DNA of 64,000 nucleotides from Verrucomicrobiia bacterium (GTDB lineage Bacteria > Verrucomicrobiota > Verrucomicrobiia > Limisphaerales > DSYF01): contig DASTWL010000003.1 in the NCBI GenBank assembly GCA_035765895.1, positions 1 to 64,000 on the forward strand, given 5' to 3'. Every line of letters begins with the position of its first letter. Within the stretch, counting starts at the first letter, position 1. Made by a program: the position numbers and the translations under genes. The notes below the pieces were generated by a model. The model was not told the origin of the DNA and made no database searches. It saw only the letters and a program-made list of their open reading frames with translations. Positions 10,564 through 20,912 of this stretch are shown here, piece by piece.

Positions 10564-10908
10564 TCGCCGGTAACCCGCAGCAGCGTTGTCGCTTATACTG
10601 TGTAATTTCGCTGGCGTCGCGGCCTTGGTTTGCTAGAACTCAACTGCCTCAAAGGCGGGCTTTTCCAAGCCGTGCTCCGGGAAAACCGATCCCCCGTGAA
10701 CCACCGGTTGTTCGTCGCGCCATGCGTTTGGGGCAAGCTGCATGAACATCACTGCTTGCTTCCGGCTTGGGCCAACGAGTGGCCGGCACAGTAGTTCGCG
10801 CGCCGACCGTGGCCGCAATAAAGCTGTGCGCCTTGCTGCCGGGGCAGGAGCATCATGTCAGCGGTGGTATTGTCACCGTCCGCCCATTCCCGACAAATAA
10901 CCCTGCGC
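10564..10908. other. Intergenic region and leader of the Ehr operon
   Basis: About 345 bases with no convincing gene. The 3' part must hold the promoter and leader of the 10-kb operon that follows. I see short GC hairpins but no riboswitch consensus I can name. An in-frame ATG at 10855 would extend the first operon protein by 18 residues; this is judged non-coding because the paralogue downstream aligns from 10909. Confidence 0.5.
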
Positions 10909-12858
10909 ATGATCCCCGGGCCATTCTTCCTCGTCGCCGCGTTCAGCCTGCTCGCGGCCATTCTCGTCGGGCGCCGCGCGCCGCGGGCGTGGCTGGCGGC
11001 CACGCTCGGAGGACTGGGGGCCGGCCTGCTCGCCGCCGTGGCTGTGCTGCTTGGGGGCGCGGAGTGGAACTGGCGCAGCACATTTCCCGTGGCGGGCGAA
11101 CCGCTGCACCTGCGGCTGGATGCCTTGAGCGCCCTGTTCCTCGCGCTGTTGGCGGTCGTGGGCGCCGCCGGCAGCGTGTATTCCCGCGAGTATTGGGCGG
11201 ATCGGGCGCATCCGCGGTCCGCCCGCTCGGGCCGCGTATGGTGGAGTGTGCTGTTGCTGTGCATGGGGCTCGTGCTGCTGTCCTCGAACGGGCTGCATTT
11301 CCTGATGGCGTGGGAGCTGTTCACCGTCAGCAGTTATTTCCTGATCACCCTCAACCGTCAGCCGCGCGCGGTGCGCGCGGCGGGCTGGCTTTACCTTGCG
11401 GCGTCGCATGCGGCGACCCTCTGCCTGTTCGCCTTCTTCGTCACGCTGGCGGCGCGCACCGGCAGCTGGGAACTCGGTCCGATGCGCGAACAGGCGGAAC
11501 TGGCCCCGTTGTTCTGGCTGGCGCTGGTTGGTTTCGGCGTGAAGGCCGGCGTGTTTCCGCTGCACATCTGGCTGCCTTCGGCGCATGCCAATGCGCCCAG
11601 CCACGTTTCGGCCATCATGTCCGGCGTGACCATCAAGCTGGGCATCTACGGACTCGTGCGTTTCAGCAGCTGGCTGCCCGTGCCGGCGGCCGCCGGTTGG
11701 GTGGTGGTCGCGTTGGGCTTGGCCAGTGCGGTGTTGGGCGTTGCGTTTGCGCTCGGCCAGCATGACCTGAAACGACTGCTCGCCTATCACAGCGTTGAGA
11801 ACATCGGCATCATTCTCATCGGGCTCGGGTTTGCCCTTGTGGCCGTGGAGCACGGACAACTGGCCTGGGGTGGACTAGCCTTGGCGGGCGGACTGTTGCA
11901 TGTCTGGAACCACGGCTTGTTCAAATCCCTGTTGTTCCTCGGCGCGGGTTCGGTGCTGCACGCCACCGGCACGCGCGAAATGAGCCGGCTCGGCGGGCTG
12001 TGGCGGCACCTGCCGTGGACGGCCGGGTTGTTCGCGCTCGGCGCCGTGGCCATCGCGGGTCTGCCGCCCTTGAACGGCTTCGTCAGCGAATGGCTGGTCT
12101 ATCTCGGCTTGTTCGACGCCGTCAACGCGCACGCGAATGCCGCGTTGCCGGCCGTCCTCGCGGTGGTGCTGCTGGCGCTGACCGGCGCGCTGGCGCTGGC
12201 CTGTTTCATCAAGGTCTGTGGCGTCGTGTTTCTCGGCGCGCCGCGCACGGCCGACGCCGAACACGCCCACGAATGCGGGCTCGGGATGCGCGGGCCGATG
12301 CTCGCGCTGGCGGCGGGCTGTGTTGTGACCGGTCTGGTGCCCGTGGTGTTCTGGCCGGCGCTGGCGCGGGCGGTTGTCGTGTGGAATCCCGCCTGGAGCG
12401 GCCTCGATCGCCCGGTCTCGCTGAACACGCTCGGAACGTTTCACCTGGCCCTGGCGCTGGCCGCGGTGCTCGCGGCGTGGCTGCTTCGGAGCCGCACACG
12501 GGCAAATGGCTTGCGCCGCACGGTGACGTGGGACTGCGGTTACGCGGCTCCGACGGCGCGCATGCAATACACGGCCGGTTCGTTCGCGGCCACCATCACC
12601 GGCTGGTTTGACTGGATTCTGCATCCGCATCGCCACGAACGGTGCCCCGAGGGAACGTTCCCAACCCGCGCAAGCTTTGCGGAGCACACGCCCGAGACGG
12701 TGCTTGAGGAAGTAGTGGCACCGGGGGCCGGACTCGTGATGCGCGTGGCCGCCGTCGTGCGACGGCTCCAACACGGGCGGGTGCAGGCTTACGTGCTTTA
12801 TCTCGTCGCCGGCCTCGCCGCACTGGCGATCCTGGTCATGATCGGAGGTGGCCTGTGA
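10909..12858 (+). CDS. Antiporter-like membrane subunit, HyfB/NuoL type (copy 1) of Ehr complex
   Basis: Proton-conducting membrane subunit of 649 residues related to HyfB of formate hydrogenlyase and to NuoL/M/N and Mrp antiporter subunits. About 15 hydrophobic helices are seen. Conserved family features are the Glu in LMAWELF (TM5), the loop WLPSAHANAPSHVSAIMSG followed by Lys in TM7 (TIKLGIYG), and HVWNHGLFKSLLFLGAGS (TM8). The ATG at 10909 makes it exactly as long as the second copy and aligns the starts (MIPGPFFLVAAF against MTPGVLLLIAAC). It is the first gene of an eight-gene run reaching 20912 and presumably moves protons or sodium when the peripheral arm transfers electrons. Confidence 0.9.
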   Translation: MIPGPFFLVAAFSLLAAILVGRRAPRAWLAATLGGLGAGLLAAVAVLLGGAEWNWRSTFPVAGEPLHLRLDALSALFLALLAVVGAAGSVYSREYWADRAHPRSARSGRVWWSVLLLCMGLVLLSSNGLHFLMAWELFTVSSYFLITLNRQPRAVRAAGWLYLAASHAATLCLFAFFVTLAARTGSWELGPMREQAELAPLFWLALVGFGVKAGVFPLHIWLPSAHANAPSHVSAIMSGVTIKLGIYGLVRFSSWLPVPAAAGWVVVALGLASAVLGVAFALGQHDLKRLLAYHSVENIGIILIGLGFALVAVEHGQLAWGGLALAGGLLHVWNHGLFKSLLFLGAGSVLHATGTREMSRLGGLWRHLPWTAGLFALGAVAIAGLPPLNGFVSEWLVYLGLFDAVNAHANAALPAVLAVVLLALTGALALACFIKVCGVVFLGAPRTADAEHAHECGLGMRGPMLALAAGCVVTGLVPVVFWPALARAVVVWNPAWSGLDRPVSLNTLGTFHLALALAAVLAAWLLRSRTRANGLRRTVTWDCGYAAPTARMQYTAGSFAATITGWFDWILHPHRHERCPEGTFPTRASFAEHTPETVLEEVVAPGAGLVMRVAAVVRRLQHGRVQAYVLYLVAGLAALAILVMIGGGL

Positions 12859-13006
12859 ATCATTCAACCACGGCTGGCTGCGGATCAACCGGGATGAACG
12901 GGGCGCGGACCAGAGTCTGCATTTCTCTCGATCCGTGGCCCTCCGTGGCTGCCCACCGGTTGGATTTTCCAGGGCCATGTTTACGAACCACGTTGCTTCC
13001 GCCGTC
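12859..13006. repeat. Possible degenerate dispersed repeat between operon genes
   Basis: A 148-base gap, unusual in this overlapping operon. It contains AACCACGGCTGGCTGCGGAT, then ATCAACCGGGATGAACGGGG and TCGATCCGTGGCCCTCCGTG. These look like decayed halves of the ACCACGGAT/ATCCGTGG family of intergenic inverted repeats I associate with this phylum. No intact palindrome is left and no second clear copy is seen in the window, so this is a weak call. No gene is seen. Confidence 0.3.
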
Positions 13007-13699
13007 ATGTATCTAAACCTCATCCAGATTGCCGAGTCGTTCGGTGTTTCGGAAAAGGTCGTCGAAGACTGGATCCGCAAGGAGGGGCTGCCATCCACGC
13101 CGGATCGTGGCCGGCTGTTGTTCGACCGCGGGCAAGTGGCCACGTGGGCCGCTTCGCGCGGTCTCGCGGCGCAGGCGGGGTTCCTCGCGCCGGGAAGTCC
13201 GGTCATCACGGCCGGCTGGCGGCTGGAATCGTTGCTGCGCGCCGGTGGCATCTGGCGGAACGTTGAGAAGGGCGCCGTGACTGATGTGTTCGAGAAGATT
13301 GTCTCCGTGCTGCCGGGCGCAACCCCGCCGATTCGGCAGCTCCTCGCCCGGCGTCTGCGCGCCCGGGACGGCGTGACGTTTGCACCGGTGGGGGGTGGAT
13401 TTGCCCTGCCACATCCGAGCATGCGCGTGGCGCTGGGGCGTGATTCCGGCGTGGTGGCGCTGCTGCTCCTGCGCGAACCGCTGGAACTGGCGGAACCGGC
13501 GCCCGACGACGAGCCGGTGACACGCTTGATCTTCTTCATCGCGCCCTCGCCGCGCGCGCATCTTGATTTGCTGGGCCGGCTGAATCGCGTGCTGGCGAGT
13601 GGCCCGTTGCGGGAACTGGTGATGCGGGGCGCCCCGGATTCGGAGATTTTTCAAGCACTGACAAAGGCCGAGGGGGCGGGCCGGGAGGTGAAACTGTGA
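13007..13699 (+). CDS. HTH-EIIA (PtsN-like) fusion protein inside Ehr operon
   Basis: Soluble 230-residue protein with two parts. Residues 3-50 form an excisionase/MerR-like helix-turn-helix (LIQIAESFGVSEKVVEDWIR, then GRLLFDRGQVATWAA). Residues about 75-220 form a PTS EIIA domain of the PtsN (nitrogen) type, with the phosphorylatable His136 in GGGFALPHPSMRVAL. The ATG at 13007 starts right at the HTH domain; longer in-frame starts run into the repeat-like gap. Its GTGA overlap with the second antiporter gene shows it is translated with the complex. EIIA-Ntr proteins regulate transporters and kinases by binding in a phosphorylation-dependent way, so it may tune the complex or control its expression; that is inference. 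No EI or HPr gene is present here. Confidence 0.85.
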   Translation: MYLNLIQIAESFGVSEKVVEDWIRKEGLPSTPDRGRLLFDRGQVATWAASRGLAAQAGFLAPGSPVITAGWRLESLLRAGGIWRNVEKGAVTDVFEKIVSVLPGATPPIRQLLARRLRARDGVTFAPVGGGFALPHPSMRVALGRDSGVVALLLLREPLELAEPAPDDEPVTRLIFFIAPSPRAHLDLLGRLNRVLASGPLRELVMRGAPDSEIFQALTKAEGAGREVKL

Positions 13700-15645
13700 C
13701 TCCGGGCGTGTTGTTGTTGATTGCGGCGTGCGGCGTGATCGCCGGGCTCGTGCTGGGCCCCTGGCGGCCGCGATTGTGGCTGGCGCTGACGTCGGCGGGC
13801 GCAATTGTGGCGCTGGTCGCGGCACTGTGGGTGCTCGTGGGCGCGACGGATTGGGAATGGCGCAGCGGGTTTGCCGTGGCGGGCGAACCGCTGCACCTGC
13901 GGCTCGACGGCCTCAGCGCATTTTTCCTCGTGCTGCTCAGCGTGGTGGGCGGCGCGGGCGCGGTTTATGCCCGCGAGTATTGGGCGGACCAACAGCATCC
14001 GGATTCGGCCGGTCGCGGGCGGCTGGCCTGGAACGCCATCAGTTTGAGCATGGGGGGCGTCCTGCTCATATCAAACGGACTGCATTTCCTCATCGCGTGG
14101 GAACTGTTCGCCATCAGCGGTTACTTTCTGATTGTGCTGGAACGCCAGCGGCGCGAGGTGCGCACGGCGGGCTGGCTGTATCTGGCGGTGTCGCACGCGG
14201 GAACACTTTGCCTGTTTGCCTTTTTTGTCGCCCTGGCGGCGCGCACCGGCAGTTGGGAACTCGGCCCGCTGCGTGCGCATGCGGAATTGGCGCCGCTGTT
14301 TTGGCTGGCACTCGCCGGATTTGGAGTGAAGGCAGGCCTGTTTCCGCTGCACATCTGGCTGCCCTCGGCGCACGCCAACGCGCCGAGCCATGTCTCGGCC
14401 ATCATGTCGGGCGTGGCGATCAAGATGGGGCTCTACGGGATCATCCGTTTTGGCGGCTGGCTGCCGGTGCCGCCGGCGGCGGGCGGCGTGGTCATCGGGA
14501 TCGGCGCGGTCACGGCCCTGCTTGGCATTGCATTCGCCTTTGCCCAAAACGATCTCAAACGGCTGCTCGCGTATTGTTCGGTCGAAAACGTCGGCATCAT
14601 CGCCATCGGCCTCGGTGGGGCGCTGCTCGGCGTGCGGCACGGGGATGCGCCGTGGGGCCGGCTGCTGCTGGCGGGCGCATTGCTGCACGTGTGGAACCAC
14701 GGCGCGTTCAAGGCGCTGCTGTTCCTCGGCGCGGGCTCGGTGTTGCATGCCACCGGCACGCGCGAGCTGAGCCGGCTCGGCGGACTGGCCCGCGTGATGC
14801 CCTGGACGGCGGGATTGTTTGCGCTGGGGGCGGCCGCGATTTCCGCCCTGCCGCCGCTGAACGGCTTCGTCAGTGAATGGCTGCTGTATCTCGGCCTCTT
14901 CGACGCGGCGGCGAGCCGGAGTCACACGGCCTGGGCGGCGATGCCCGCGGTGATCGCGCTGGCCACGGCGGGGGCGCTGGCGCTGGCCAGTTTCGTCAAG
15001 GCATCCGCGATGATTTTCCTCGGCGCGCCGCGCACCGAAGCGGCAGCGCACGCCCACGAATGCGGCCCGTGGATGCGCGGGCCGATGCTCGCCCTGGCGG
15101 GCGCCTGCGTCGGGATCGGCCTGGCACCCTGCGTGTTCTGGCCGGCGGTGGCGCGGGCGGTGGGCGCGTGGAACCCCGCGTGGGCCGGGGCCGAAATGCC
15201 TGCGCCGCTGTTCACCTTGAGCGCCGTGCAGTTTGCCCTGGCGGGGCTGTTCATCGCTGGCGGAACGTGGTTGTGGCGGCGGGCGCGCGCCAATGGACTG
15301 CGGCGGGCGTTGACGTGGGATTGCGGTTACGCCCGGCCGACCGCGCGCATGCAATACACGGGCGGGTCGTTCGCGGGCATCGCCGGCGGATGGTTTGCCT
15401 GGATTCTGCAGCCCGAGCGCGCGCTGCGTCGGCCGCGCGGCCCGTTCCCCGGGCGCGCGAGCCGGATCGAGCGCGTTCCCGAGACCGTGCTGGAACGCGG
15501 CATCGAGCCGGCGGGGCGCGTCGTGATGCGCGCGTCCGCGGCCGTGCGCCGGTTGCAGCACGGGCGGTTGCAATTCTACATCCTTTACCTCGCCGCCGGG
15601 GTGGCGGTGCTCGCGATGCTCGTCTGGTTGGAGGGAAGACCATGA
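13696..15645 (+). CDS. Antiporter-like membrane subunit, HyfB/NuoL type (copy 2) of Ehr complex
   Basis: Second 649-residue HyfB-like subunit, a close paralogue of the first: long identical runs include GEPLHLRLD, REYWAD and HIWLPSAHANAPSHVSAIM. The GTG start overlaps the upstream TGA (GTGA). TM5 Glu (LIAWELF), TM7 Lys (AIKMGLYG) and TM8 HVWNHGAFKALLFLGAGS are kept, so both copies look functional as ion channels. The C-terminal stretch (TWDCGYARPTARMQYTGGSFA, continuing to about residue 649) is also shared and resembles the HyfB extension. Having two long subunits plus the HyfF-like one gives the complex three antiporter-like modules, as in complex I. Confidence 0.92.
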   Translation: MTPGVLLLIAACGVIAGLVLGPWRPRLWLALTSAGAIVALVAALWVLVGATDWEWRSGFAVAGEPLHLRLDGLSAFFLVLLSVVGGAGAVYAREYWADQQHPDSAGRGRLAWNAISLSMGGVLLISNGLHFLIAWELFAISGYFLIVLERQRREVRTAGWLYLAVSHAGTLCLFAFFVALAARTGSWELGPLRAHAELAPLFWLALAGFGVKAGLFPLHIWLPSAHANAPSHVSAIMSGVAIKMGLYGIIRFGGWLPVPPAAGGVVIGIGAVTALLGIAFAFAQNDLKRLLAYCSVENVGIIAIGLGGALLGVRHGDAPWGRLLLAGALLHVWNHGAFKALLFLGAGSVLHATGTRELSRLGGLARVMPWTAGLFALGAAAISALPPLNGFVSEWLLYLGLFDAAASRSHTAWAAMPAVIALATAGALALASFVKASAMIFLGAPRTEAAAHAHECGPWMRGPMLALAGACVGIGLAPCVFWPAVARAVGAWNPAWAGAEMPAPLFTLSAVQFALAGLFIAGGTWLWRRARANGLRRALTWDCGYARPTARMQYTGGSFAGIAGGWFAWILQPERALRRPRGPFPGRASRIERVPETVLERGIEPAGRVVMRASAAVRRLQHGRLQFYILYLAAGVAVLAMLVWLEGRP

Positions 15646-16550
15646 TCGCAATTCTGGAAATCATTCTGCGCCTGGCGCTCTGGCTCGTGCTCGCGCCGCT
15701 GCTGCCGGGCATCATCAACAAGGTGAAGGCCTGGGTGGCCGGGCGAAAAGGCCCGCCCGTGCTGCAACTCTATTACGACCTGGCGCGCCTGTGGCAAAAG
15801 GGTGTCGTGCTGAGCACGCTGGCGTCGCCGGGGTTCATCGCCGGTCCGGCGGTGGCGTGGGTGGCGCTGGTGGGCGCGGCGTTGTTGCTGCCGCTCGGTC
15901 CCGCCGGGAGCGCGCTGAGTTTCCGGGGCGACGTGCTGCTGCTGGTTTACCTGTTTGCCGTGGCGCGGTTTTGCACCGCGTGGGCCGCGCTGGAAACGGG
16001 CTCCGCCTTCGAGGGCATGGGCGCGGCGCGCGAGGTGAGCTACGCCGTGCTGGCCGAAGCGGCGCTCATCACGGGGATTTTGTCGCTGAGCGTGCAGACG
16101 GGCAGCGTCACGCTGGCGGCGATGCTGTCACAACCGGTGGGAGCAGGCGCCGTGCTGCTGGCCGCGGGCTTGTTCGCCGTGCTGCTGGCGGAGAATTGCC
16201 GCGTGCCCTTTGACGATCCGAACACGCACCTGGAACTGACGATGATCCACGAAGTCATGGTGCTCGATCACAGCGGGCCGCCGCTCGCGGCGGTGTTGCA
16301 CGGGGCGGCGGTGAAGCTGTTGCTCTTCGCCGTGCTGTTGAGCCAGGCGGTGTTGCCGTTGAACGGCCTCCCGCCGTTGCTGGCCGCCGTCACGCTGGGG
16401 GCAGCCGTGCTGGTGGTGACCGTGGGCGTGGGCTTGGTGGAATCGTTGCTCGCGCGGTTCGCCTTCCGCCGCGTGCCGCTGCTGCTGACGACGGCATTTT
16501 TGCTTTGCCTCTTCGCCCTGCTGCTGGCGTGGAAAGGCGGCGCGACATGA
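15642..16550 (+). CDS. NuoH/HyfC-like membrane subunit of Ehr complex
   Basis: Membrane subunit of 302 residues that connects the peripheral arm to the antiporter-like subunits, homologous to HyfC/HycD and to NuoH of complex I. Eight or so hydrophobic helices are seen. Signatures are KGPPVLQLYYDLARLW near residues 35-50, ETGSAFEGMGAAREVSY, and the strongly conserved loop ENCRVPFDDPNTHLELTMIHE around residue 185-205, which faces the quinone/hydrogenase interface. The ATG overlaps the previous stop (ATGA) and has a good Shine-Dalgarno, GGAGGGAAG, seven bases upstream. Confidence 0.92.
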   Translation: MIAILEIILRLALWLVLAPLLPGIINKVKAWVAGRKGPPVLQLYYDLARLWQKGVVLSTLASPGFIAGPAVAWVALVGAALLLPLGPAGSALSFRGDVLLLVYLFAVARFCTAWAALETGSAFEGMGAAREVSYAVLAEAALITGILSLSVQTGSVTLAAMLSQPVGAGAVLLAAGLFAVLLAENCRVPFDDPNTHLELTMIHEVMVLDHSGPPLAAVLHGAAVKLLLFAVLLSQAVLPLNGLPPLLAAVTLGAAVLVVTVGVGLVESLLARFAFRRVPLLLTTAFLLCLFALLLAWKGGAT

Positions 16551-17188
16551 ACACAACAGTGAATCTTTTGATCGGCCTCGCGATGGGGCTGAATCTGCTC
16601 GCGCTGGGCAGCAGCCGGCTGCCCTCGATCATTCGCGCCATGTCGGTGCAGGGGATGGCGCTGGGGTTGCTGCCGTTGCTGCTGGAACACGAACTCGACT
16701 GGCGGGTGGTGGCGGTCGCGCTGGTCACGGTGGCGGTGAAGGGGTTTGTGATTCCGCAGCTGCTGCGGCGGGCGATGCGCGCGGCGAACATCGAGCGCGA
16801 GGTCGAACCCTTCATCGGTTTCGTGCCGTCGCTGTTGCTCGGGGCCGCCGGGACGGTTGCGGCGGTGGCGGGCGCGCGGGCGCTGCTGTTGCTGCCGGAG
16901 CATGCCGGCACGCTGCTGGTGCCGGGCGCGCTGGCCTCGATTTTCACCGGGCTCATCCTGCTCGTGGCGCGGGCGAAGGCGATTTCGCAGGTCTGCGGTT
17001 ATCTGATCATGGAAAATGGCATCTACCTGTTCGGGCTGCTGCTCATCCACTCGACGCCGCTGCTCGTCGAGTCGGGCATTCTGCTCGACGTCACGGTGGG
17101 CATCTTCGTGACCGGCATCATTGTGGACCGCATCCAGCGGGCGTTCGACTCGCTCGACACGCGCAAACTGACGGTGCTCCGAGAATGA
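16547..17188 (+). CDS. HyfE-like membrane subunit of Ehr complex
   Basis: Protein of 213 residues with about seven hydrophobic helices, like HyfE of hydrogenase 4, whose C-terminal half corresponds to NuoK of complex I. The family hallmark is the late segment ISQVCGYLIMENGIYLFGLLL, in which the membrane Glu of the NuoK-like part is kept. The ATG overlaps the preceding TGA (ATGA). The tail (DRIQRAFDSLDTRKLTVLRE) is cytoplasmic. It belongs to the proton-translocating arm between the NuoH-like and HyfF-like subunits. Confidence 0.88.
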   Translation: MNTTVNLLIGLAMGLNLLALGSSRLPSIIRAMSVQGMALGLLPLLLEHELDWRVVAVALVTVAVKGFVIPQLLRRAMRAANIEREVEPFIGFVPSLLLGAAGTVAAVAGARALLLLPEHAGTLLVPGALASIFTGLILLVARAKAISQVCGYLIMENGIYLFGLLLIHSTPLLVESGILLDVTVGIFVTGIIVDRIQRAFDSLDTRKLTVLRE

Positions 17189-18627
17189 AAGAACTCTTGC
17201 TCATCATCGTGCCGCTGGCGGGCGCGGCGCTGGCCGCCCTCTGGCCCGGCGAGCGCACCCGGCCGTGGCTGTTGCCGGCGGTCGGGTTGGTGCATTCGGT
17301 GCTGGCGTTCTGGCTGCTGCTGGAACCGCCGCGTGTCGCGCCGGATGCATGGCTGGCATTCGATCCATTGGCGCGGGCGGTGTTGCCGGCGGTGTCGTTG
17401 TTGTTCCTCGTGTGCGCGGCCTATGGCGTGTCCTACCTGCGCATCCGGGCGGAGCGGTCCAACCGCGTGTTCGTGGCGTCGCTGCTGGCGATGCTGGGGT
17501 TGCTGAGCGCCGGTCATCAGTCGCGGCATCTGGGGTTGCTGTGGATCACGACGGAGGCGCTCACATTGACCGCGGTGCCGCTCCTGCATTTCAACGGCAC
17601 GGCGCGCGCCTTTGAAGCGACCTGGAAATACCTGCTCGTCGGCGGCACGGGCATCGCGATGTCGCTGCTGGGCTCATTTTGCCTGGGTTATGCCTCGCTG
17701 TATGGGGGCGGGACGGGCGACCTGACGTTTGGCGCGATGATGGCCCAGGGCGCCGGCCTGTCGCGGCCCTGGGTGCTGATCGCCTGGGTGCTGTTGCTGG
17801 TTGGCTACGGAACCAAGATGGGCCTCGCGCCCATGCACACGTGGAAGCCCGATGCCTACGGCGAAGCGCCGGGCATCGTGGGCGCCATGCTCGCGGGCGG
17901 CGTCACCACCGTGGCGTTTACCGCCTTGTTGCGCGTGCGCGCCGTGGTGGACGCGGCGGGAGCCGGCGCCATCGCCGACCGCACGCTGCTCGTCATCGGG
18001 CTCTTTTCCGTGGTGGTGGCGGCGTTGTTCCTGCTGGGAACCCGCGATTTCAAACGGATGCTCGCGTATTCGAGCGTCGAGCACATGGGCATTCTGGTCA
18101 TCGGCGCCGGGCTCGGCCGCGCGGGAGTGTGGGCGGCGCTCTTCCATGTCTGGACGAACTGCCTCACCAAGGGAACGCTGTTTCTGAGCGCGGGCAACAT
18201 TCGGCGGGCGGCGGGCGCGCGCACCTGCGATGAAGTGAGCGGCATGGCGGTGGTCACGCCCCAGTCGGCGGCGCTCTTCGTGGCCGGTCTGTTCGCCGTC
18301 ACCGCGTGTCCGCCGTTCGGCCCGTTCTTCAGTGAACTGCGCGTGCTGCGCGCGGCGATCGAAGGCGGCCACTGGGCCGCGACGGGTGTGTTCCTGGGCG
18401 GACTCCTGTTCGCCTTTTTCGGTCTGACGCGGCTGGTGTTTGCCATCGTGGATGGCCGGCCGCGCACGCCGGCCCGGACGGGCGGCGCGCATCTCCGTGA
18501 AAGCATCGGCGTCATCCTGCCGCCGCTGGCGTTGCTCGGCTTTTCCCTGTGGCTCGGCCTGGCGACGCCGGCGGTGCTGCGCGACGCCTGGACGGCGGCT
18601 GTTGCCCAACTTTTCCCCGCGTCATGA
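17185..18627 (+). CDS. HyfF-like antiporter subunit of Ehr complex
   Basis: Third antiporter-like subunit, 480 residues and about 14 helices, closest to HyfF of hydrogenase 4 and NuoN/NuoM. Typical segments are LLWITTEALTLTAVPLLHF (TM5 Glu), GTKMGLAPMHTWKPDAYGEA, and LLGTRDFKRMLAYSSVEHMG (conserved Lys and the SSVEHMG loop), then FHVWTNCLTKGTLFLSAGN. The ATG overlaps the preceding TGA by four bases. It ends in a run overlapping the large-subunit gene. It is less similar to the two HyfB-like copies than they are to each other. Confidence 0.92.
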   Translation: MKELLLIIVPLAGAALAALWPGERTRPWLLPAVGLVHSVLAFWLLLEPPRVAPDAWLAFDPLARAVLPAVSLLFLVCAAYGVSYLRIRAERSNRVFVASLLAMLGLLSAGHQSRHLGLLWITTEALTLTAVPLLHFNGTARAFEATWKYLLVGGTGIAMSLLGSFCLGYASLYGGGTGDLTFGAMMAQGAGLSRPWVLIAWVLLLVGYGTKMGLAPMHTWKPDAYGEAPGIVGAMLAGGVTTVAFTALLRVRAVVDAAGAGAIADRTLLVIGLFSVVVAALFLLGTRDFKRMLAYSSVEHMGILVIGAGLGRAGVWAALFHVWTNCLTKGTLFLSAGNIRRAAGARTCDEVSGMAVVTPQSAALFVAGLFAVTACPPFGPFFSELRVLRAAIEGGHWAATGVFLGGLLFAFFGLTRLVFAIVDGRPRTPARTGGAHLRESIGVILPPLALLGFSLWLGLATPAVLRDAWTAAVAQLFPAS

Positions 18628-20105
18628 GCACCACCTCGCCCTTTGCCCTGCTGGCCAATGCCACGAGTCTGCCGTGGGCCGATGTGCCCGCGTGGACGGT
18701 GGCGGAGTTCGTGCGCCGGACCGCGGCGGAACTGGCGCGCGGCGCGCGGCTGTGCGCGTGGTTTGGTGTGCCCGATCACGACGCCGTGCGGCTGGTGGCC
18801 GTGCTCGCCTTTGACGCCGACAACACGCTGGCCGTCGGGCGCAGCGCGCCGGTGACGGGCAGCTACCCGTCCCTCACCGTGATGAATGCGCAGGCGCATC
18901 TGTTCGAGCGCGAAGTCTGGGAACAGCATGCGCTCGTGCCGGAAGGCCATCCCTGGCTGAAACCCGTGCGACGCAGTGCCGGCACGGCGCCGGCGAACGG
19001 CGATTTTTTCCGCGTGGACGGGCCTGAGATTCACGAGGTCGCCGTCGGGCCGGTGCATGCGGGCGTCATCGAACCGGGGCATTTTCGTTTTCAATGCGCC
19101 GGCGAGGAAGTGTTGCACCTGGAGATCGCGCTGGGCTATCAGCATCGTGGCGTGGAGGAGGCGCTCGTGGGCGGACCGCATCTGGCCACGATGTGCCAGA
19201 TGGAAACGGCCGCCGGTGATTCGACCGTGGCGCACGCGACTGCGCACGCCTCGGTGATGGAAGCGCTCGCCGGCACTGAGGCGCCGTTGCGCGCCCAATG
19301 GCTGCGGGCGGTCGCGCTCGAACTGGAGCGGCTCGCCAACCACACGGGCGACCTGGGCGCGCTGGCGAACGACGTCGCCTTTCTGCCCACGGCCTCGGCG
19401 TGCGGCAAACTCCGCGGCGATTTTCTGAATCTCACCGCGCTGCTTTGCGGCAACCGCTTCGGCCGTGGCTTGGTGCGGCCGGGCGGCTGCCGCTTCGACC
19501 TCGAACCCGATCGCGGCGCGCGAATGCGCGAACGCCTGCGCCCGGTGCTGGCCGACACTGAGCAGGCCGCCGTCTGGTTGTGGGACGCCGCATCGGTCCG
19601 GGCACGTTTCGAGAATGTGGGCAAGGTGTTTGCCCGACAGGCCGCCGAAATCGGCCTGGTGGGCCTGGCGGCCCGGGCGTGCGGGCTGGTGCGCGACGTG
19701 CGTTATGATCATCCGGCGGGCTGGCATCGCTTTGCGCAGATGCCCGTGGCGGTGTGGCCCGATGGCGACGTCTTTGCGCGGGCGCGGGTGCGCTGGCTGG
19801 AAATTCAACGCTCGGGAAAATTTCTTGAAGAACAACTCGCGGTGCCGCCCGAGGGCGGGGTGCGCATCGAACCCGGACCGCTGGCCGGCGACACCCTGGC
19901 GGTGGCGCTCACGGAAGGCTGGCGCGGCGAGGTCTGCCACGTGGCCTTGACGGATGCCGGGGGCCGGTTCCGCCGCTACAAGATCGTGGACCCTTCGTTC
20001 CACAACTGGACGGGCATGGTGCTGGCGCTGCGCGGCCAGGCGATCTCGGATTTTCCCATCTGCAACAAGAGCTTCAACCTCTCGTATTGCGGCTTCGACC
20101 TCTAA
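18624..20105 (+). CDS. Hydrogenase large-subunit/NuoCD-like protein without NiFe ligands (Ehr)
   Basis: Fusion of a NuoC-like N-terminal domain (about residues 1-140) and a NuoD/HyfG-like domain (about 150-493). The N-terminal [NiFe] motif, normally RVCGIC, is replaced by ETAAGDSTVAH, so both cysteines are gone; the C-terminal DPCxSC region is KSFNLSYCGFDL, which keeps only one shifted cysteine. It therefore cannot bind a NiFe site in the normal way and fits the energy-converting-hydrogenase-related (Ehr) proteins. Conserved fold residues such as YQHRGVEE, LERLANHTGDLGAL and LSYCG remain. The electron donor or acceptor is unknown; no hyp maturation gene is present. The ATG overlaps the HyfF-like stop. 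Confidence 0.9.
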   Translation: MSTTSPFALLANATSLPWADVPAWTVAEFVRRTAAELARGARLCAWFGVPDHDAVRLVAVLAFDADNTLAVGRSAPVTGSYPSLTVMNAQAHLFEREVWEQHALVPEGHPWLKPVRRSAGTAPANGDFFRVDGPEIHEVAVGPVHAGVIEPGHFRFQCAGEEVLHLEIALGYQHRGVEEALVGGPHLATMCQMETAAGDSTVAHATAHASVMEALAGTEAPLRAQWLRAVALELERLANHTGDLGALANDVAFLPTASACGKLRGDFLNLTALLCGNRFGRGLVRPGGCRFDLEPDRGARMRERLRPVLADTEQAAVWLWDAASVRARFENVGKVFARQAAEIGLVGLAARACGLVRDVRYDHPAGWHRFAQMPVAVWPDGDVFARARVRWLEIQRSGKFLEEQLAVPPEGGVRIEPGPLAGDTLAVALTEGWRGEVCHVALTDAGGRFRRYKIVDPSFHNWTGMVLALRGQAISDFPICNKSFNLSYCGFDL

Positions 20106-20117
20106 CCCTGCCCACCC

Positions 20118-20912
20118 ATGTTCGTCCTCAATACTCTTGCCCACCGGCTTCGGAACGGTTGCCAGACGATGGCGTATCCTGACGGCCCGGCTCCGGCGCT
20201 GCCGGACCGCCACGGTGGGGCCCTGCGCGTTGAGGCCGCAAAATGTGCCGAGGGGTGCCGCGAATGCGTGCCCGTCTGCCCGACGCAGGCCATCACGCGT
20301 CCCGCGGGCCGCGCCGTCTCATTGGATCTGGGCCGTTGCATTTTTTGTGCGGCATGCGTCGAGGCGTGTCCAGCCGGAGCCATCACGCAAACCGGCGACC
20401 ATCGCATGGCGGGACGGCGGCGGGAAGACCTTGTGCTCGGCCGTCCCGGCGACGAGCAGGTCCGGCTGGCCGTGGCGCTGGATGGAAAACTTCGCAGGCT
20501 GTTTGGCCGTTCGCTGCGCTTGCGTCAGGTCAGTGCGGGCGGTTGCAACGCCTGTGAGGCCGACACCAACGTGCTGGGCACCATCGGCTGGGATTTGGGA
20601 CGTTTCGGCATTCAATTCGTTGCCTCACCCCGGCACGCGGATGGGTTGCTCGTTACCGGGTGTGTGAGCCGCAACATGGAACTCGCCCTGCGCAAGGCTT
20701 ACGAGGCCGTGCCGGAGCCCAAGATTGTCATCGCGGTCGGCGCGTGTGCCATTGCAGGCGGACCGTTCGTTGGCCATCCCCAAATTCGGGAGGGCGCGTC
20801 GGCGGTGGTGCCGGTGGACTTGTTTGTCCCGGGCTGTCCGCCCCATCCGCTGACGATTCTTGACGGCTTGTTGCGGTTGTTGGGGCGGTTGGAGGAATCA
20901 GCTGGAAAGTGA
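20118..20912 (+). CDS. Fused two-cluster ferredoxin and NuoB/HyfI-like small subunit of Ehr complex
   Basis: Protein of 264 residues joining the HyfH (NuoI-like) and HyfI (NuoB-like) subunits. The ferredoxin half (about 35-100) has CAEGCRECVPVCP, with one extra residue between the first two cysteines, and a standard CIFCAACVEACP, so two [4Fe-4S] clusters are likely. The NuoB-like half (about 130-255) keeps the N2-type cluster ligands in GGCNACEAD, VGACAIAGG and PGCPPHP. It closes the operon, 12 bases after the large subunit. It carries electrons between the ferredoxin-like site and the membrane arm. Its fused form is discussed in the findings. Confidence 0.9.
   Translation: MFVLNTLAHRLRNGCQTMAYPDGPAPALPDRHGGALRVEAAKCAEGCRECVPVCPTQAITRPAGRAVSLDLGRCIFCAACVEACPAGAITQTGDHRMAGRRREDLVLGRPGDEQVRLAVALDGKLRRLFGRSLRLRQVSAGGCNACEADTNVLGTIGWDLGRFGIQFVASPRHADGLLVTGCVSRNMELALRKAYEAVPEPKIVIAVGACAIAGGPFVGHPQIREGASAVVPVDLFVPGCPPHPLTILDGLLRLLGRLEESAGK

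Follow-up and report, generated by a model that had tools for sequence, protein, structure and literature searches.

Why should a gene for a phosphotransferase system (PTS) protein lie between two copies of an antiporter gene? The question was raised by an operon at positions 10909-20912 of a window of 64,000 nt from a Verrucomicrobiia bacterium (contig DASTWL010000003.1), in which the gene order is B1, HTH_17-EIIA, B2, C, E, F, G and a ferredoxin-HyfI fusion; B1 and B2 are HyfB-like, and the protein encoded between them is PtsN-like. An earlier reading of this DNA from its letters alone (the sequence-only reading) had proposed a HyfB duplication and control by the phosphotransfer state. Our best explanation of the whole, which we regard as reasonably probable, is that the protein with the helix-turn-helix (HTH) and EIIA domains is a PTS-responsive regulator dedicated to an energy-converting hydrogenase-related (Ehr) complex.

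The first line of evidence is linkage. In a phylum sample of 241 genomes, in which 37 loci were mapped, an HTH-EIIA gene adjoins HyfB in 27 loci, and one additional case is cut by a contig end. A class sample of 335 genomes gave 38 HTH-EIIA matches, 34 of which have HyfB on the same strand within 600 bp. EIIA is thus widespread in the related operons rather than absent from them. The EIIA-HyfB linkage is old, and the sequences sampled indicate that it has been kept across dozens of families. The operon is also present in the cultivated relatives Geminisphaera colitermitum TAV2 and Opitutaceae EW11. A scan of the contigs of close relatives found no locus identifiable as outside Verrucomicrobiota (three were labelled merely 'bacterium'), and a search of open-licence papers found no report of EIIA linked to Hyf or Ehr.

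The EIIA gene matched PTS_EIIA_2 above the Pfam cut-off (2.5e-7), and the PtsN structures 3urr, 4gqx and 1a6j were matched by both sequence and fold (structure model with a predicted local distance difference test score of 79 and a predicted template-modelling score of 0.63). The HTH_17 domain corresponds to the N-terminal ~55 residues. Every EIIA copy that extends over that region has the catalytic His136 and a second histidine, His185, and genes for the general PTS proteins enzyme I (EI) and HPr are present in the source genome. The same genome also encodes a multidomain PTS protein, a single 845-aa frame with HPr, EI N-terminal and EIIA-2 domains (C64:53239-55734). A Foldseek search with the model of 13007-13699 additionally returned SLC4 anion exchangers, namely the regulatory domains of hAE2, band 3 and NDCBE, and Na_H_Exchanger proteins with a C-terminal PTS_EIIA_2 domain were found in four Verrucomicrobiota genomes (L130:1498-3327, L131:1532-3286, L132:1597-3447 and, on the minus strand, L133:3035-4789). 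The SLC4 matches suggest that an EIIA-like fold recurs as a regulator of ion transporters.

A tree of the EIIA proteins split cleanly into two classes, R1 and R2 (support 100/100), and both show good conservation of the HTH. Class R1 is encoded by the first gene of its operon; the window holds class R2 alone, with the catalytic histidine retained. The residue corresponding to the active-site Arg of PtsN is Arg in R1 copies and in the R2 of the window. With B for HyfB, the gene orders observed were R1-B, R1-B-B, R1-B-R2-B, B-R2-B, B-R2, R2-B and R2-B-B. R1 would be the ancestral class and R2 the diverged one. In the simplest history, an R-B unit was duplicated, the inner R diverged, Opitutaceae and their relatives then lost the outer R1, and B2 would have been lost separately in other lineages (L117-L120). 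In these four loci B2 is either missing or present as a short remnant, HyfC directly follows the retained R2, and L119 has broken frames.

The second line of evidence comes from the promoters. Eight-base words in the regions upstream of R1 exceeded shuffled sequences and resolved into TGTC repeated at exactly 10 bp, with a majority consensus of about ATGTCCACAAATGTCAA. The direct repeat is present in 16 of 25 R1 heads (shuffled mean 0.11, maximum 2), while TGTC at each other period from 6 to 15 bp was found in 0-2 heads, and the 10-bp repeat was found in none of nine HyfB operons without EIIA. In the 17 loci with visible sites, a choice by which the count gauges position and not frequency, 19 sites lie no more than 110 nt upstream, and the rest of these loci, 274 kb, has 3. 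Among genomes outside the discovery set, with 17 upstream regions scanned altogether, the repeat occurred in 4 of 15 HyfB-linked R1 heads (shuffled mean 0.09, maximum 3 in 2000 runs), and two more heads had it with one mismatch, as judged by eye. In each of the six R1 genomes that were scanned in full, the strict pattern TGTCCnnAAATGTC was found exactly once, and every time upstream of this Ehr operon; these genomes were picked for a promoter holding the site, so that the information lies in the absence of the pattern elsewhere. A reversed control pattern gave 4 matches in seven genomes, indicating that chance matches occur at a low rate. At some loci one of the half-sites coincides with a TTGACA -35-like hexamer; this would account for one TGTC, though not for the other one 10 bp away. 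Two loci (L125 and L135) hold lone HTH-EIIA genes away from HyfB and likewise carry the 10-bp repeat near the start. The repeat was found in none of the R2-only operons, including that of the window, and a search for inverted-repeat operators found nothing. Relatives with an HTH_17 domain, BldC among them, bind head to tail on direct repeats of 9 bp, with 9 bp per protomer (PMC5859096; PMC11963761). Because HTH_17 proteins bind such repeats and one stands at many R1 promoters, once per genome in the six searched whole, R1 is probably a dedicated PTS-responsive autoregulator with a predicted operator. The promoter repeat in relatives speaks for control of transcription, in the ancestral form at least.

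The genes of the operon and its one long gap are as follows (all on the plus strand):

10909-12858, plus: HyfB-like antiporter subunit, first copy (B1); Proton_antipo_M 4.7e-48
12859-13006, plus: intergenic stretch of 148 nt between B1 and EIIA, the sole long gap of the operon
13007-13699, plus: HTH_17-EIIA (PtsN-like) regulator, class R2; PTS_EIIA_2 and HTH_17
13696-15645, plus: HyfB-like antiporter subunit, second copy (B2); Proton_antipo_M 1.2e-44; 66-67% identity to B1
15642-16550, plus: HyfC/NuoH-like membrane subunit; NADHdh 1.3e-25; 33% to E. coli HyfC
16547-17188, plus: HyfE-like membrane subunit; NCBIfam hydrogenase 4 membrane subunit 1.7e-21, under its curated cut-off
17185-18627, plus: HyfF-like antiporter subunit; Proton_antipo_M 4.1e-45; top E. 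coli match HyfF
18624-20105, plus: HyfG-like large subunit (30-kDa and 49-kDa domains) without NiFe cysteine motifs; Complex1_49kDa 2.7e-28, Complex1_30kDa 3.3e-4
20118-20912, plus: two-[4Fe-4S] ferredoxin (HyfH/NuoI-like) fused to a HyfI/NuoB-like small subunit; Fer4 domains, Oxidored_q6 1.6e-26

B1 starts at ATG 10909 (an upstream ATG at 10855 would make 667 aa) and B2 at GTG 13696; the start of the EIIA gene backed by relatives is ATG 13007, giving 230 aa. The two HyfB-like genes on either side of EIIA each encode 649 aa, as the sequence-only reading had it, and have no internal stops. Its statement that all remaining genes overlap holds for the 4-nt overlaps at EIIA/B2, B2/C, C/E, E/F and F/G but not for the last gene, which lies 12 nt beyond HyfG. 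The 148-nt gap is a possible internal promoter or operator, and no motif was found in it.

Judged by its subunits, the product of the operon is an Ehr complex, which resembles complex I and has no hydrogenase site. HyfG aligned to subunit 5 of formate hydrogenlyase (FHL; 7z0s) over most of its length with no CxxC at either nickel-iron (NiFe) site; METAAGDST and SFNLSYCG occupy the positions where an N-terminal CxxC and a C-terminal DPCxxC are expected. Every HyfG relative that reaches those regions likewise lacks both cysteine motifs. For this reason the complex was classed as Ehr, Ehr complexes being defined as having group 4 hydrogenase-like subunits without NiFe CxxC motifs (PMC6349859, PMC10284858), and a group 4 [NiFe] hydrogenase (Hyf/FHL-2) was rejected. 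The small subunit keeps the proximal-cluster cysteines (CxxC and three further Cys) and carries the two-[4Fe-4S] ferredoxin at its N terminus, which makes electron input to the complex likely. No genes for the NADH module (NuoE/F/G) are in the operon; two NuoF-type homologues of the source genome are on other contigs, one of them beside a separate Nuo operon. HyfG has Gly aligned to the quinone-site Tyr position of the 49-kDa subunit (Tyr87 of T. thermophilus Nqo4). In both respects the complex differs from respiratory complex I. Two Nuo-like loci are present in the source genome, along with several proteins of the haem-copper oxidase type, so that the Ehr complex would be an additional one in an organism that can probably respire. 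To our knowledge, Ehr complexes have no known function.

HyfG proteins of the EIIA-linked operons have the C-terminal signature FP(L/I/V)CNKS...LSYCG in common. In a second Ehr type HyfG ends in SYSG (L095, L096 and the second operons of L073 and L097), and in the loci mapped no operon of this type has an EIIA. The downstream parts of L117 and L121 are probably also of the SYSG type, with a HyfB of the SYSG-type clade following the EIIA-linked operon, and in L073 a second Ehr operon (11280-18613; SYSG type, no EIIA) lies between HyfF and HyfG of the first. Control by the phosphotransfer state, as proposed by the sequence-only reading, is made plausible by the invariant catalytic His and the encoded EI and HPr. 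That reading correctly placed an EIIA (PTS_EIIA_2) protein between the HyfB copies; it had missed the N-terminal HTH_17 domain, the Ehr nature of the complex and the promoter repeat of the relatives.

The duplication itself is well supported. B1 and B2 share 66-67% identity in an alignment of 648 residues that has 2 gaps (E = 0), and their DNA contains direct repeats at a constant spacing of 2787 nt. Identities of 0.74, 0.81 and 0.55 at the three codon positions fit an old duplication under purifying selection. The best NCBIfam match of B1 was hydrogenase 4 subunit B, and among E. coli proteins both copies ranked HyfB first (35%, for B1 across 615 aa) and HyfF next, with HyfD or NuoM weaker. 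In a tree, window-type HyfB copies formed one clade of 33 with 100% support; the two copies in the window thus do not come from different sources, and the proposed duplication was borne out. Within this clade B2 was monophyletic apart from the single-copy operon L073, and monophyly of the first copies was not rejected (p 0.58). A single ancient duplication behind all paired operons was rejected by the approximately unbiased test (p 3e-62), as was a clade of the first copies of R-B-B operons (p 9e-57). The R-B-B operons duplicated HyfB separately from the window-type operons. On these trees, HyfB was duplicated several times independently, and the pair in the window is one local event.

The TM5 Glu, TM7 Lys and TM12 Glu (TM, transmembrane helix) are residues whose significance is known from complex I. 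Alignments showed that the first two are retained in B1, B2 and the HyfF-like subunit, and that B1 and B2 have the TM12 Glu, as in NuoM and HyfB, and a C-terminal tail common to HyfB and NuoL. Homology and the TM5 and TM7 residues support three antiporter-like modules (B1, B2 and F), as had been claimed. This number is not special, because E. coli Hyf, by its annotation, already has HyfB, HyfD and HyfF; in the window operon a HyfB copy fills the place of HyfD. An extra antiporter subunit is known from MbsH/MbsH' (PMC7684303), the name EhrA-1 in Geobacter implies a second copy (PMC7894505), and some complex I with four antiporter-like subunits is cited in PMC7419157. Because Hyf, Mbs, Ehr and complex I already offer examples of extra subunits of this kind, the duplication is ordinary, and the new part of the operon is the regulator. 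The source genome also has four consecutive Proton_antipo_M genes (C89:48472-54819; frames of 716, 554, 511 and 551 aa), which resemble a complex I operon to which a NuoM-like subunit has been added; they occur in addition to an ordinary set on C39.

Several observations weigh against a dedicated PTS-responsive regulator. The HTH_17 match (3.6e-5, 24.4 bits) is slightly under the Pfam cut-off of 27. The branch between R2 and R1 is very long (5.4 changes per column), and the active-site Arg is often Lys or another residue in relatives of the window R2, so that phosphorylation of R2 may differ. Nine of the 25 R1 heads lack the exact repeat, as do 11 of the 15 heads examined later. The repeat is also absent at the head of the window operon, TGTCCnnAAATGTC occurs nowhere in the source genome, and a search for an R2-specific direct repeat at heads or B1-EIIA gaps found nothing above shuffles.

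The alternative that survives best takes HTH-EIIA as an ordinary PTS-responsive transcription factor in both classes, with an R2 site that was not recognised here. The predicted operator of the R1 operons, the conserved HTH and the frequent position of HTH-EIIA as first gene of its operon all agree with this explanation, but R2 lies inside the operon, between B1 and B2, and has no motif at heads or gaps; we consider it possible, with the odds leaning clearly the other way. In a purely post-translational alternative, the overlap of 4 nt would keep EIIA synthesis in step with that of HyfB, and in one of its phosphorylation states EIIA would bind to the membrane arm and either block or uncouple the movement of ions, with the HTH as a protein-contact domain. 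A repeated EIIA-B-EIIA-B unit (L068, L114, L121 and G255), the lack of the operator in R2-only operons, the fusions of EIIA to Na+/H+ exchangers and the matches to SLC4 regulatory domains fit such a gate. It also has a precedent, since PtsN in its unphosphorylated form binds to the K+/H+ antiporter YcgO and inhibits it (PMC11808508). The dedicated predicted operator of R1, the conservation of the HTH in both classes and the often unequal copy numbers of EIIA and HyfB (R-B-B, or B-R without B2) argue against it, and we think it unlikely. An EIIA that is no longer phosphorylated and has a constant role in structure or assembly, or is linked by chance, would suit the strong divergence of R2 and its variable Arg, yet is very improbable given the invariant phosphoacceptor and second histidines and a linkage persisting over dozens of families.

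Under the preferred explanation, a PTS-responsive regulator dedicated to the Ehr complex, the EIIA domain would read the phosphorylation of the PTS relay (EI-HPr, and hence phosphoenolpyruvate/pyruvate or carbon status), and its output would set the amount or activity of a complex that is probably ferredoxin-fed and ion-translocating, with B1, B2 and F as antiporter-like modules. In the ancestral arrangement, R1 as first gene would bind through its HTH to the direct repeat of 10-bp period at its own promoter, and for R1 the promoter sequences favour transcriptional control. In the lineage of the window, the EIIA-HyfB unit would have been duplicated, the outer R1 lost and the diverged R2 kept between the HyfB genes without that operator. 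This R2 may use another DNA site, or may contact the antiporter modules directly and in a phosphorylation-dependent manner, as PtsN contacts YcgO. A more specific version makes R2 a phosphorylation-dependent gate: once the unit had been duplicated, a transcription factor that regulated its own operon would have become a protein docking on the two HyfB modules of an Ehr pump driven by redox reactions. We consider this version unlikely; if true, the PTS state would directly control a complex-I-like machine.

Ehr function can be approached concretely through a conserved PTS-type regulator whose predicted operator is unique, and the signal probably controlling the complex would be phosphotransfer, carbon or energy state. 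If so, PTS regulation would extend from sugar and K+ transport to a machine of the complex I family. The operons also show that antiporter modules were gained repeatedly and independently within one phylum. The Ehr complex of Geobacter (GSU0739-0745) is alike in its group-4-hydrogenase-like subunits without NiFe CxxC (PMC6349859, PMC10284858) and in its HyfE-like and NuoL-like subunits, the latter being EhrA-1. It differs in that EIIA is not among the subunits named in PMC7894505, whereas HTH-EIIA is a conserved operon member in Verrucomicrobiota, where HyfG ends in the conserved CNKSFNLSYCG signature. Hydrogenase 4 (Hyf)/FHL-2 shares homologous B, C, E, F, G, H and I and three antiporter-like subunits; the window operon has a second HyfB for HyfD, no NiFe ligands, an EIIA and no HyfR/FocB. 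BldC/excisionase-type regulators have in common the HTH_17 domain and direct-repeat sites of about one helical turn per protomer; unlike them, the protein described here carries an EIIA sensor, and its predicted TGTC-based half-sites, for class R1 only, are spaced 10 bp. PtsN (EIIA-Ntr)/YcgO is alike in the EIIA-2 fold, the catalytic His and the genomic tie to a cation/proton-antiporter-like protein, whereas the EIIA in the window has the extra HTH_17 domain and, as its putative partner, a redox-linked multi-subunit complex.

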